DNA of 64,000 bases from Actinomycetota bacterium (GTDB lineage Bacteria; Actinomycetota; UBA4738; HRBIN12): NCBI GenBank assembly GCA_040881665.1, contig JBBECT010000005.1, positions 326,138 to 390,137 on the forward strand, written 5' to 3'. Below are positions 32,343 through 36,586 of this stretch, piece after piece (the first letter of the stretch is position 1; each line of letters starts with the position of its first letter). The translations under genes were made by a program, and so were the position numbers. The notes below the pieces were generated by a model. It made no database searches, was not told the DNA's origin, and saw only the letters and a list, made by a program, of their open reading frames with translations.

Positions 32343-34196
32343 TCAGACCTTCACGACCTTCATCGTGTAGTTGCCGTTGCTGAAGTACGACGTCGCATGG
32401 AAGTAGTGCACGCCCGCGTACTTGGCTTTGAATCGGACCGTCTCGTCCTTCCCATTGCCCTTGAAGGACCCACCACGGAACTGCGGACAGGCTCCCCCCG
32501 TGTAGCAGCCCATCGTGAACTGCCACGTGTCCTTCACGGCCTTGGTCCAGACGACCAGATCGAAGTCCTTGCCGGGGGGGACAGCCAGTCTCGCCTCGTA
32601 GGTAGCTCCCTTCCGCAGCCGCTTCTTGAAGAAGTCATTGACGTCGGCGGGCCAGGCCAAGCTTCCGTTCTTCGACTTCGTGATCCCGTTCGCTTCCGTC
32701 GGGAAGCCGTCGCTGTCGGGGGTCGCGTTCTCCGTCGTCGCCGTCAGGGCGGAGTTCGCGTCGCTCCGTCCCTGGCTTGCCGTGAGGTCACCCCCGACCG
32801 CCCCGGCGTCCGTCTGGAGCTGGAGGGAGCTCGGTTGGTCGACACCGCGCATGAGTGCGTTGACGGTCTGAAGGGGCGAGAGGGAGGGGCGGTGCGCTCG
32901 AACGAGCCCGGCGATCCCGGCGATGTGCGGGGTGGCCATCGAGGTCCCGCTGAGGAACCCGTACGCGTTGTTCGCAACACTCATCGTGCTGTAGACGTTC
33001 GTCCCCGGGGCGGCGATGTCGACCGAGGTCCTTCCCCAGTTCGAGAACGTCGAGTAGCGGTCGCGATTGTCGCTGGACGCCACGGCGATGATCCCCGGCA
33101 CGTTGTAGCTCGCCGGGTACGAGGGAGAGATCCCGCCCGTCGAAGTACTCTGCGAATTCATGTCGTTGTCGAGCGCATCGTTGCCGGCGGCGAACGCGAA
33201 CAGTACGCCTTGGTTGGCAGCCTGCATGATCGCGGCCCGCTCGGCCTTCGACCACACCGGGCCGCCGAAACTCCCGTTCACGATCGTGGCGCCCTCCTCC
33301 AGGGCGTAGCTGAAGCCCTCGACGATCTCACCTGTCGACAGGTTCGAACGCAGCGACATGATCCGGCAGTTGGGACAGGCTCCCGCGACACCCAGACCGT
33401 TGTCGAATTCCGCGCCGATCGTTCCTGCGACGTGCGTCCCGTGCGCGGGACAGCCGTTCTGGTCGCACTGCCCGTTGACCTGGTTCGGGCTTCCCCCCGT
33501 CGTCAGATTCACGCCGTGGATGTCGTCGACGTAACCGTTCCCGTCGTTGTCGAGGCCGTCGACCACTTCGTCGGGGTTCGCCCACAGCTTGTCCGCCAGG
33601 TCCTCGTGTGCGAGCCGCGTTCCCGTGTCGAGGACCGCGACGATCACGCCGTTCGCGATGCTTGATCCACCCAGCGATGTGTCCCAGGCCGTCGTCGCAT
33701 CGACGTCGGCGCCGTTCGTTCCGGCGATCCCGCCGACCGTCTGCCCCGTGTTGCGCAGACCCCAAAGGTCGCCGAAGTCCGTGTCGTTCGGAACGATCTG
33801 CGGGTAGCGCCGAAGACCCTGCTCGGCGAATTTCACCCGCGGATCGCGCTCGTAGCTGCGGATGACCGCATCGACCGAGACCCCGGACCGGACCTTCAGG
33901 ACGTCCATCTCGAGGTTGGGAAGACGATCATCGACCACCACGCCCGTCGAGCGGTGAAGCCCGTCAAGGTCTCGGCCGCGAACGCCCTCTGCCCACCGCA
34001 CGATCACTTCGTCCTCAACGAGGACGTTCGAGGGCAGCGAACCTGTACCGGGAACGACCTTGCGGGGCTGGCCCTCCACGGTTCCCTGATCGACGGCTGC
34101 CGCAGGCGAGGCGAGCATTGCTCCCGCTACAACCAGCGCGGCAGCGGTCGCGTTGCCCACTGCACGGCGAACAGCGCTGGGGGGCTGTGCGGGCAT
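32343..34196 (-). CDS. Secreted subtilisin-like serine protease (family S8)
   Basis: 617 residues. Signal peptide (ALVVAGAMLASPAAA, residues 20-34), an I9-like propeptide (about 55-130), and a catalytic domain with Asp190 (VLDTGT), His252 (HGTHVAG), Asn339 (AAGND) and Ser419 (SGTSMATPH), all intact. Cys243, Cys249, Cys274 and Cys277 (QCDQNGC, ACPNC) may form disulfides. A C-terminal PPC-type beta domain (about 510-617) is common in secreted subtilases and is often cleaved. GGAAGGAA lies upstream of the ATG. Likely an extracellular protease for protein scavenging. Confidence 0.94.
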   Translation of the reverse strand: MPAQPPSAVRRAVGNATAAALVVAGAMLASPAAAVDQGTVEGQPRKVVPGTGSLPSNVLVEDEVIVRWAEGVRGRDLDGLHRSTGVVVDDRLPNLEMDVLKVRSGVSVDAVIRSYERDPRVKFAEQGLRRYPQIVPNDTDFGDLWGLRNTGQTVGGIAGTNGADVDATTAWDTSLGGSSIANGVIVAVLDTGTRLAHEDLADKLWANPDEVVDGLDNDGNGYVDDIHGVNLTTGGSPNQVNGQCDQNGCPAHGTHVAGTIGAEFDNGLGVAGACPNCRIMSLRSNLSTGEIVEGFSYALEEGATIVNGSFGGPVWSKAERAAIMQAANQGVLFAFAAGNDALDNDMNSQSTSTGGISPSYPASYNVPGIIAVASSDNRDRYSTFSNWGRTSVDIAAPGTNVYSTMSVANNAYGFLSGTSMATPHIAGIAGLVRAHRPSLSPLQTVNALMRGVDQPSSLQLQTDAGAVGGDLTASQGRSDANSALTATTENATPDSDGFPTEANGITKSKNGSLAWPADVNDFFKKRLRKGATYEARLAVPPGKDFDLVVWTKAVKDTWQFTMGCYTGGACPQFRGGSFKGNGKDETVRFKAKYAGVHYFHATSYFSNGNYTMKVVKV

Positions 34197-34298: not shown

Positions 34299-34328
34299 TT
34301 GACGCCGATGGGGCCTACCTGGCACGAT
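34299..34328 (+). promoter_or_regulatory. Predicted trp operon promoter
   Basis: TTGACG (34299-34304) is a good -35; CACGAT (34323-34328) 18 bases on is a moderate -10. Start of transcription would be near 34335, only a few bases before the leader-peptide ATG. Confidence 0.45.
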
Positions 34329-34337
34329 GCAGGCACG

Positions 34338-34406
34338 ATGATCGTCCGCACGGAGAGCTGGGTCTGGCGTCGGGGCTCCACGAGCCCGGTTCCGACGCGC
34401 GCCTGA
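34338..34406 (+). CDS. trpL: trp leader peptide
   Basis: 22-codon open frame, ATG 34338 to TGA 34404-34406, with two Trp codons at positions 8 and 10 (ESWVWRRG). Trp is rare, so a WVW motif in a short frame upstream of trpE is a strong sign of an attenuation peptide. An in-frame ATG at 34308 would add a third Trp codon but lies upstream of the predicted start site. It has no strong Shine-Dalgarno; a nearly leaderless start is possible. Ribosome stalling on the Trp codons would control the hairpins that follow. Confidence 0.7.
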   Translation: MIVRTESWVWRRGSTSPVPTRA

Positions 34407-34458
34407 TCCCCCGCTCCACCAGCGACGACGCGACGGCCCCGGGCGACGAGCCCGGGGC
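34373..34458 (+). terminator. trp attenuator: alternative RNA hairpins
   Basis: Three mutually exclusive pairings are visible. Protector 1:2 is GGGCTC (34373-34378) with GAGCCC (34382-34387). Antiterminator 2:3 is GCCCGG (34384-34389) with CCGGGC (34439-34444). Terminator 3:4 is GCCCCGGGC (34436-34444) with GCCCGGGGC (34450-34458), loop GACGA, followed by TCTTGCATTT. A ribosome stalled at the Trp codons (34359-34367) would mask strand 1 and favour 2:3, allowing trpE expression when tryptophan is scarce. Confidence 0.75.
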
Positions 34459-34502
34459 TCTTGCATTTCCGAGCACCTGACGTATCCGAGGAGGATCGAC
34501 CG

Positions 34503-36023
34503 GTGGACCAGCAGCTGCAGATCCGACCAGACCGAAGCGAGTTCGACGCCCTCGCCGCCGAGTGGCCGCTCGTCCCGGTGTGGACCGAGCTGCTCGCCGA
34601 CGTGTCCACCCCCGTCGGGTTGTTCGAGGCGCTGGCGGCCGACGGTCCGGGCATCCTGCTGGAGAGCGTCGAGCGCTCCGAGCGCTGGGGGCGGTTCTCG
34701 TTCGTCGCCGGGGAGCCTGCAGCGCTGATCGTCGCCGACGCCGACGGTGTTCGGGTCGAAGACCGCGTTCGCGAGCTCCGCCTCCAACCTCCCGCCCCGG
34801 GAACCGATCCGCGCGCGGCGTTGCGATCGGTAGCGGAACAGCTCCGCGGTCCGCGGATCCCCGACCTCCCGGCCCTGACCGGGGGGCTGATGGGCGTGCT
34901 CTCGTACGAGGCCGCGTTCCTGCTCGACGGACATCCGTTCCCCACAGGCACGTCCGGCGAGCAACTCGTCGCGGCTCCGATCACGCTGCAGGTGATCGAC
35001 CGTGCAGTGGTGTTCGATCATTGGAGGCAGCGGCTGCTGCTCGTGGCGCACGTGCCGAGCGGCGGCTACGACGGGGCGCTCGAGGCCTTGGGCGATCTCG
35101 CCCGGAAGGTCGTGGAGGCACGCCCTCCTGCGCCCGAACCGATCGGCGACGGGGCGGCCGCGGACGCATCCGCCGGCGACCCGAACATGACCGACCAGCG
35201 GTTCCGCGACATCGTCGCCGACTTCAAGGAGCACATCCTCGCCGGCGACATCTTTCAGGGCGTTCCCTCGCGCCGTGTCGCGTTCGCCGCGCCGGACGGG
35301 GGATTCCCCATCTATCGTCGCCTGCGCGTCAGCAACCCCTCCCCGTACATGTTCTTCGTGCGCCAGCCGGGCATCGAGCTGGCGGGGTCCTCCCCCGAGC
35401 CGCTCGTTCGCGTGGAGGGCAGGCGCGTGACGAGCCGCCCGATCGCCGGCACGTACGCGCGGGGCGCGAACGAGGACGAGGATCGCGCGCTCGCCGATCG
35501 CCTGCTCGCCGATCCGAAGGAACGCGCCGAGCACGCGATGCTCGTCGACCTCGCTCGGAACGACATCGGTCGCGTGTGCGCGCCCGGAACGGTGGAACCC
35601 ACCGAGCTGATGGTCGTCGAACGCTTCTCGCGGGTGATGCACATCGTCAGCACGGTCGAGGGTGACCTCGCCGAAGGGTTCCACCCGCTGGACGCGCTCG
35701 CCGTCACTTTTCCGGCGGGAACGGTGACGGGCGCACCGAAGCGACGAGCGATGGAGCTGATCGCCGACGCGGAGCCGACAGCACGGGGTCCCTATGCAGG
35801 TGCGGTCGGATACCTGACGTTCGCCGGGGACCTCGACTTCTGCATCACGATCCGTACCGCCGTGATCGCGGACGGGATCGCGACGGTACAGAGTGGCTGC
35901 GGTGTGGTCGCCGACTCCGACCCGGAGGCCGAACTGCGGGAAACCAAGGCCAAAGCCGCGGGGCTGATGCCCGCCGTCGCGGGACGAACCGGCACCACCG
36001 AACCCACGGGAGCCAGCCGATGA
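34503..36023 (+). CDS. trpE: Anthranilate synthase component I
   Basis: Makes anthranilate from chorismate, first step of tryptophan synthesis. The 506-residue protein starts at GTG 34503 with GAGGAGG 8 bases upstream. The N-terminal part has ILLESVERSERWGRFSF, the region that binds feedback tryptophan. The chorismate-binding half has LAGSSPEPLVRVEGRRVTSR, PIAGTYARG, VDLARNDIGRV, and FPAGTVTGAPKRRAMELI. It could be PabB-like, but the trp leader and the LLES motif favour TrpE. The trpG ATG overlaps its stop. Confidence 0.93.
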   Translation: MDQQLQIRPDRSEFDALAAEWPLVPVWTELLADVSTPVGLFEALAADGPGILLESVERSERWGRFSFVAGEPAALIVADADGVRVEDRVRELRLQPPAPGTDPRAALRSVAEQLRGPRIPDLPALTGGLMGVLSYEAAFLLDGHPFPTGTSGEQLVAAPITLQVIDRAVVFDHWRQRLLLVAHVPSGGYDGALEALGDLARKVVEARPPAPEPIGDGAAADASAGDPNMTDQRFRDIVADFKEHILAGDIFQGVPSRRVAFAAPDGGFPIYRRLRVSNPSPYMFFVRQPGIELAGSSPEPLVRVEGRRVTSRPIAGTYARGANEDEDRALADRLLADPKERAEHAMLVDLARNDIGRVCAPGTVEPTELMVVERFSRVMHIVSTVEGDLAEGFHPLDALAVTFPAGTVTGAPKRRAMELIADAEPTARGPYAGAVGYLTFAGDLDFCITIRTAVIADGIATVQSGCGVVADSDPEAELRETKAKAAGLMPAVAGRTGTTEPTGASR

Positions 36024-36586
36024 TCCTCGTCGTCGATCACTACGACTCGTTCGTCTACAACCTCGTCCAGCTGATCGAGAAGATCGGCGAGGCGACCGAA
36101 GTCGTCCGCAGCGACGCGGAGCCGGCCGAGGCCCTCGTCGCTCGCCGCCCGGATGCCGTCGTGCTCTCCCCCGGTCCCGGTCGCCCCGAGGCCGCGGGCT
36201 GCATGACCGATCTCCTCGCGATCCTGCCCGCAGAGACCCCCGTGCTCGGGGTATGCCTCGGCCACCAGGCGTTGGGGATCGCGACCGGTGGGAGGGTCGA
36301 TCGCGCGGCGCCCGTGCACGGGAAGGCGTCGAAGGTCTTCCATGAGGGCGCCGGGATCCTGGCCGGGGTACCGAGCCCGTTCGAGGCGGCCCGCTATCAC
36401 TCCCTCGTGGTCCTGCGGGACGAGCTGCCCGACGAGCTGGAGCTCACCGCGTGGACCGATGACGGCCTCGTGATGGCGACCCAGCACCGAGAGCTGCCAC
36501 GGTTCGGGGTCCAGTTCCACCCCGAGAGTATCCTGACGCCCGACGGCCCGACGATCGTTGAGAACTTCCTGCGCCTGACCCGTTGA
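36020..36586 (+). CDS. trpG: Anthranilate synthase component II (glutamine amidotransferase)
   Basis: 188 residues. Class I glutamine amidotransferase triad: Cys79 (GVCLGHQ), His167 and Glu169 (FHPES). Supplies ammonia to TrpE and may also serve p-aminobenzoate synthesis (PabA role), as in many actinobacteria. ATGA overlap with trpE indicates translational coupling and 1:1 expression. No further trp genes follow in this window. Confidence 0.94.
   Translation: MILVVDHYDSFVYNLVQLIEKIGEATEVVRSDAEPAEALVARRPDAVVLSPGPGRPEAAGCMTDLLAILPAETPVLGVCLGHQALGIATGGRVDRAAPVHGKASKVFHEGAGILAGVPSPFEAARYHSLVVLRDELPDELELTAWTDDGLVMATQHRELPRFGVQFHPESILTPDGPTIVENFLRLTR

Follow-up and report, generated by a model that had tools for sequence, protein, structure and literature searches.

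The 204 nt that end at trpE in this Actinomycetota genome most probably form a ribosome-mediated transcription attenuator of trpEG, governed by a leader peptide that is itself probably leaderless; we put the probability of this reading at about 0.93. Conservation among relatives, and not fold energy, confirms that the observation is real. Judged from its sequence, the device is a known kind of trp attenuator, and what is new here is a lineage-specific leader peptide with a split pair of Trp codons. Coordinates below refer to the window, that is, the whole stretch of 64,000 nucleotides that was analysed.

A split-Trp leader in front of trpE and trpG

The leader peptide and the genes that it would control are the following:

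34338..34406, + strand: leader peptide ORF, MIVRTESWVWRRGSTSPVPTRA and its stop codon
34359..34367, + strand: Trp-Val-Trp control codons (TGG 34359-34361 and TGG 34365-34367)
34488..34494, + strand: Shine-Dalgarno sequence of trpE, GAGGAGG, outside the hairpins (sequence reading)
34503..36023, + strand: trpE, anthranilate synthase component I
36020..36586, + strand: trpG, anthranilate synthase component II

Read directly from the sequence, the leader has 22 codons, from the ATG at 34338 to the TGA at 34404-34406. The sequence-only reading had described such a frame with Trp at positions 8 and 10, and its coordinates proved exact, both codons being kept in 11 of the 12 attenuator loci of the class and replaced by Cys-x-Trp in the twelfth. 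The first of these genes starts with GTG at 34503. Its product scores under the curated cut-offs of the TrpE models (455.8 bits for TIGR00564, cut-off 517.7; 462 bits for NF010086, cut-off 693), yet above the PabB models, and it contains an LLES motif, which we take to be the motif of Trp-inhibited TrpE. The trpG product passes its own threshold (TIGR00566, 186.3 bits, cut-off 121), and the gene overlaps the end of trpE in an ATGA. On the other side, trpE adjoins a divergent gene on the minus strand (32343-34196) for a secreted S8-type serine protease with a weak mycosin-like match; at this place three class loci (L002, L004 and L016) have proS in divergent orientation.

Conservation and loss within the class

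The class to which the window belongs was represented by 27 genomes of one order, and the compared genomes look like mostly fragmented MAGs. The device is present at 12 of the 17 full-length trpE loci of the class (L001 and L003-L013; families f1 and f4). Eleven of these loci encode Trp at both codon 8 and codon 10, separated by Val, Phe, Ser, Thr or Arg. The leader of L011 reads Cys-Ser-Trp, codon 8 being TGT (Cys) and not TGG, which leaves Trp codon 10 alone; the rest of the leader and the terminator are intact, and the locus suggests that a single Trp codon may be enough. Since a single Trp change in a MAG may be a sequencing error, the L011 codon could be either a natural variant or an assembly error. 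Two further leaders (L007 and L010) have 14 codons, with the stop only four codons past the second Trp; a good protector hairpin is absent from both, the gap to the terminator is longer (41 nt), and this short-leader form is possibly a variant of the switch.

The combination of promoter, start codon and W8-x-W10 is specific. Expressed as the pattern TTGAC-N18/19-NANNAT-N6-10-RTG-N18-TGG-NNN-TGG, it gave exactly one match in each of 11 of the 27 class genomes, always before trpE, and no match outside the class among 397 genomes of the phylum, while the reversed control pattern had zero matches. A looser pattern, built on WSW-GGGCTC, yielded tens to hundreds of chance matches per genome and was rejected as useless.

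The remaining five of the 17 loci (L002, L014, L015, L016 and L017) lack the device. L014 and L015 have no leader ORF: a terminator-like hairpin follows the promoter directly, which looks like deletion of the sensor with retention of the hairpin; in this genus (g4; L014:1417-1483, and also L015) a TTGACG...GACCAT promoter is followed by the hairpin GCCCCGGACCGATGCGGTCCGGGG. L016 retains promoter-like elements and a short stretch that is not translated, and in L017 trpE lies closely behind another coding frame. Because these losses (L002, L016, L014/L015 and L017) are scattered among the branches of the TrpE tree, in which the class groups together (100/100), the tree suggests that the device is ancestral in the class and was lost several times. 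The apparent natural losses (leader deleted with the hairpin kept, everything deleted, or trpE placed in another operon) would make the evolution of an attenuator traceable. Six genomes of families f3 and f4 (G018, G019, G021 and G023-G025; 61-89% completeness) gave no trpE match, either through incompleteness or through real loss.

Three alternative hairpins

Between the control codons and trpE lie the segments of a classical attenuator:

34373..34387, + strand: protector hairpin, segment 1 (34373-34378) with segment 2 (34382-34387), a 6-pair stem kept in nine loci
34384..34389, + strand: antiterminator segment 2 (GCCCGG), pairing with CCGGGC at 34439-34444 and starting at leader nt 46-47 in most loci
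34436..34444, + strand: segment 3 (GCCCCGGGC), 5' arm of the terminator and, at 34439-34444, partner of segment 2
34450..34458, + strand: segment 4 (GCCCGGGGC), 3' arm of the terminator, with nine G-C pairs to segment 3
34459..34470, + strand: imperfect, interrupted U-rich tail TCTTGCATTTCC (sequence reading), similar to the tails of Streptomyces trpL1 terminators

The stretch thus contains a leader ORF with Trp codons, the mutually exclusive pairings 1:2, 2:3 and 3:4 in this order, and an intrinsic terminator before trpE. The order of the three hairpins had been proposed from the letters, and all of its coordinates were right; relatives, pattern searches and fold tests agree with it. Across the loci the exclusive pairings hold overall; L007 and L010 have a weak protector or none. 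The device would have escaped a test by folding alone: in so GC-rich a region, the 204 nt as a whole fold with ordinary energy (z -0.13), and the comparison of relatives was therefore needed to decide.

The terminator was detected by a pattern scan (10 pairs), none of 300 dinucleotide shuffles of its stretch folded as well, and a strong terminator-type hairpin occurs in 12/12 loci, beating nearly all shuffles in most, with a poor U-tail in L005. Segments 2 and 3 pair in 11 of 12 relatives, where dinucleotide shuffles would lead one to expect 2.9, and the pairing is weak in L009; the loci are related, so that pairing counts across the 12 are non-independent.

Covariation was scored on stems aligned by hand as gapless arms, because MAFFT alignment of the whole leader puts the terminator arms wrongly in L004 and L013; such an alignment is fitted to the structure, and its pair counts are biased towards it. 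Covariation of the stems in relatives, the check that had been suggested, came out moderate for the terminator and not significant for the protector. Both sides change at 5 of the 12 pair positions of the aligned terminator stem, and its covariation score was reached by 29 of 500 shuffles, which is moderate support. The covariation is modest because the core (CCCCGGG:CCCGGGG) is near-invariant, with one mismatch, in L003, and only the outer pairs vary. The CCCCGGG of segment 3 is invariant in 12/12 loci, as would be expected of a segment with a double duty. The protector pairs GGGCTC (34373-34378) with GAGCCC (34382-34387) here and takes the forms GGGCUC/GAGCCC, GGGCC/GGCCC, GGGCCC/GGGUCC and GGCUC/GGGCC across nine loci, with column pair 5/11 being U-A, C-G or U-G; L012 has a different stem, GGGG/CCCC, re-registered at the same place. 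Taken alone, the protector covariation is not significant, its score being equalled by 79 of 500 shuffles.

A probably leaderless start

The trp leader of E. coli has a Shine-Dalgarno sequence. The start of the leader described here is framed by these elements:

34299..34304, + strand: -35 element TTGACG
34323..34328, + strand: -10 element CACGAT (nAnnAT), 9 nt from the start codon
34334..34338, + strand: predicted transcription start zone, giving a 5' UTR of 0-4 nt and no Shine-Dalgarno sequence

The promoter geometry is shared by all the attenuator loci of the class: TTGAC lies 36-40 nt upstream of the leader start codon in 12/12, the spacer between the two elements is 17-18 nt in 12/12, and the start codon follows the -10 hexamer by 6-10 nt (6, 9 or 10) in 12/12, the -10 element taking forms such as CACAAT, GACAAT, GACCAT and CAGAAT. 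In S. lividans, in which leaderless RNAs are common, transcription starts 4-9 nt past the -10 element, mostly 5-7 (PMC8079986). Setting the distance from -10 to start codon against these statistics, we predict that transcription starts at the leader start codon or up to about 4 nt before it, so that the peptide is probably leaderless; a 5' UTR of 0-4 nt would leave no room for a Shine-Dalgarno sequence. The earlier suggestion that the switch may run from a leaderless peptide is supported by the promoter geometry of 12/12 loci, the transcription start itself being a prediction. Such a start is no novelty, as the trpL1 of S. lividans and the trpL of S. meliloti are leaderless too (PMC8079986, PMC7298713). 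The same geometry is found in trp leaders of several actinobacterial families, where it may be the usual form.

How the switch would work

From the anatomy and its conservation we infer the following course of ribosome stalling, termination and response to tryptophan. RNA polymerase would start on the leader AUG or no more than about 4 nt from it, and a ribosome would begin at the 5' end of the RNA without a Shine-Dalgarno sequence. When charged Trp-tRNA is scarce, the ribosome would stall at Trp codon 8 or 10 and cover segment 1. Segment 2, which lies 15 nt beyond codon 10, would then be available to the emerging segment 3; the pairing of the two would block the terminator, and trpE and trpG would be transcribed. 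When Trp is plentiful, the ribosome would reach the stop codon and segment 2 would be occluded or paired with segment 1. With segment 2 unavailable, segments 3 and 4 would form the terminator, and transcription would presumably end just before trpE.

Modelled ribosome positions flip the fold in the way that this scheme predicts. With a ribosome stalled at codon 10, assumed to hold this codon in its A site and to shield 13 nt counted from the start of the codon, the free RNA folds into the 2:3 pairing in 12/12 loci (5-7 pairs in 11 of them, 2 in L009); with the ribosome at the stop codon, the 3:4 terminator forms in 12/12, both results describing equilibrium folding of RNA pieces and not co-transcriptional kinetics. 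Together with the conserved parts, the folds argue for the tryptophan-sensing switch that had been proposed before trpE, in which the response to Trp would follow from the arrangement. According to theory, sensitivity is lower when the fraction of control codons is smaller (PMC1183508), and the split pair may for this reason be less sharp than a tandem pair.

We also considered a more elaborate version, in which the attenuator is registered from the 5' end: the leaderless start would set the timing of ribosome and polymerase, segment 2 (nt 46-47) and the Trp codons at positions 8 and 10 would be kept at set distances from the start of the transcript, the split codons would provide two graded stalls, and the terminated leader RNA or its peptide might act in trans as in S. 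meliloti. We regard this version as unlikely.

Alternative explanations

The hairpin might be a constitutive terminator that merely lowers trpE expression or passively stabilises, next to a small ORF that arose by chance or is vestigial. L014 and L015, where a similar hairpin follows the promoter with no leader ORF, demonstrate that the hairpin can persist sensorless. However, chance or decay would hardly hold both Trp codons at positions 8 and 10 in 11 of 12 loci, in a pattern that matched nothing off target in 397 genomes, nor would a vestige be expected to keep, at a fixed distance, a segment 2 that is the complement of segment 3, which makes a constitutive terminator highly improbable. It is very unlikely, too, that the leader peptide acts through Rho-dependent termination or through translational control of trpE and not through the choice between terminator and antiterminator. 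Imperfect U-tails would fit such a route, and some actinobacterial leader peptides that lack terminators have been proposed to work through Rho (PMC1262725), but the loci of the class have a strong terminator-type hairpin in 12/12 cases, above nearly all shuffles in most, and Streptomyces trpL1, an accepted attenuator, has similar tails. Translational control is unlikely in particular, as the Shine-Dalgarno sequence of trpE (34488-34494) lies outside the hairpins.

T-box, TRAP and riboswitch mechanisms control trp genes in other bacteria, and the leader could in principle bind a regulator directly in one of these ways. No tool result speaks in favour of such binding: Rfam, its Trp leader and T-box families included, gave zero matches at gathering score in the 64 kb, with only weak, chance-level matches around the leader (E 0.78 or worse), and the GAG triplets of the leader are few and irregularly spaced by sequence reading. 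We rejected these readings on both grounds and consider direct binding exceedingly improbable. The ribosome-mediated attenuator remains our preferred reading.

Relation to known trp attenuators

Experimentally supported trp attenuators are found in Streptomyces (S. venezuelae) and in Corynebacterium (PMC1262725, PMC8079986, PMC11995493). Like the device described here, the Streptomyces attenuator belongs to this phylum, precedes trpE, has a short leader peptide with UGG codons and a GC-rich terminator with an imperfect T tail, and places its start codon directly past the -10 element. In contrast, it has three tandem Trp codons at positions 9-11 where ours are split between 8 and 10, its peptide (MFAHSTRNWWWTAHPAAH in S. 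lividans trpL1, which RNA-seq showed to be leaderless; PMC8079986) and its stem sequences differ, and here trpG follows trpE. A control search recovered the Streptomyces WWW leader in 6 of 8 f22 genomes, 7 nt past the -10 element, which upholds the remark of the sequence-only reading that the present peptide, with its W-x-W, does not resemble it. The trpL of C. glutamicum (PMC1262725, PMC11995493) is likewise a classical attenuator with a Trp-rich leader before the trp operon of an actinobacterium; unlike ours, it has tandem Trp codons and the complementary triple gGCC-rGCy-GGCC.

Neither feature occurs in the 12 loci: instead of the tandem UGG (WW or WWW) of Streptomyces and Corynebacterium there is W-x-W in 12/12, one with its first W changed to Cys, and instead of the published triple (PMC1262725) the conserved one is, by sequence reading, GCCCGG / CCCCGGGC / GCCCGGGG. 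The device is therefore an addition, with a peptide of its own, to the ribosome-mediated trp attenuators. Outside the phylum, trpL (rnTrpL) of the alphaproteobacterium Sinorhizobium meliloti (PMC7298713) is also a trpE attenuator whose RNA begins at the leader AUG, as is predicted here, and differs in its consecutive Trp codons and in the trans roles demonstrated for its peptide and RNA. The E. coli trp attenuator (modelled in PMC1183508) shares the order and logic of segments 1-4 and differs in its tandem Trp codons 10 and 11 and in the additional repression by TrpR. Our analysis would extend ribosome-mediated trp attenuation to a little-known, uncultured class of Actinomycetota, and its alignment of 12 members predicts the codons and stems that are important.

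Origin and leaders of other families

An independent origin of the attenuator, which had been raised as a possibility, is not established by these comparisons. The device has its target gene, the order of its parts and the geometry of its start in common with Streptomyces and with leaders of families f18 and f25, and for this reason inheritance of a shared attenuator whose peptide then changed is just as possible. Most of the upstream regions examined outside the class have no tight Trp leader. One exception is a trpE-trpG locus on a contig titled Candidatus Dormiibacterota (L032:2780-2930), whose WRWSW leader has Trp at 9, 11 and 13; it shares the promoter geometry of the class, and its terminator is strong, with a good T tail. 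In the TrpE tree the L032 protein is placed within the class (94/90) at the end of a long branch, a position that could reflect transfer, wrong assignment of the MAG or an artefact of the tree. The other exceptions are f18, with RWWW, and f25, with FWW, where the start codon comes soon after a -10-like hexamer. The trpE leaders of f18 (L025 and L179) and f25 (L176 and L177) read MKENTCVYRWWWSPS, MFLRESLRWWWSLS, MKITGKATELNFWWFPT and MKDISGKAKLHSFWWGPR, and they start mostly about 9-10 nt past this hexamer.
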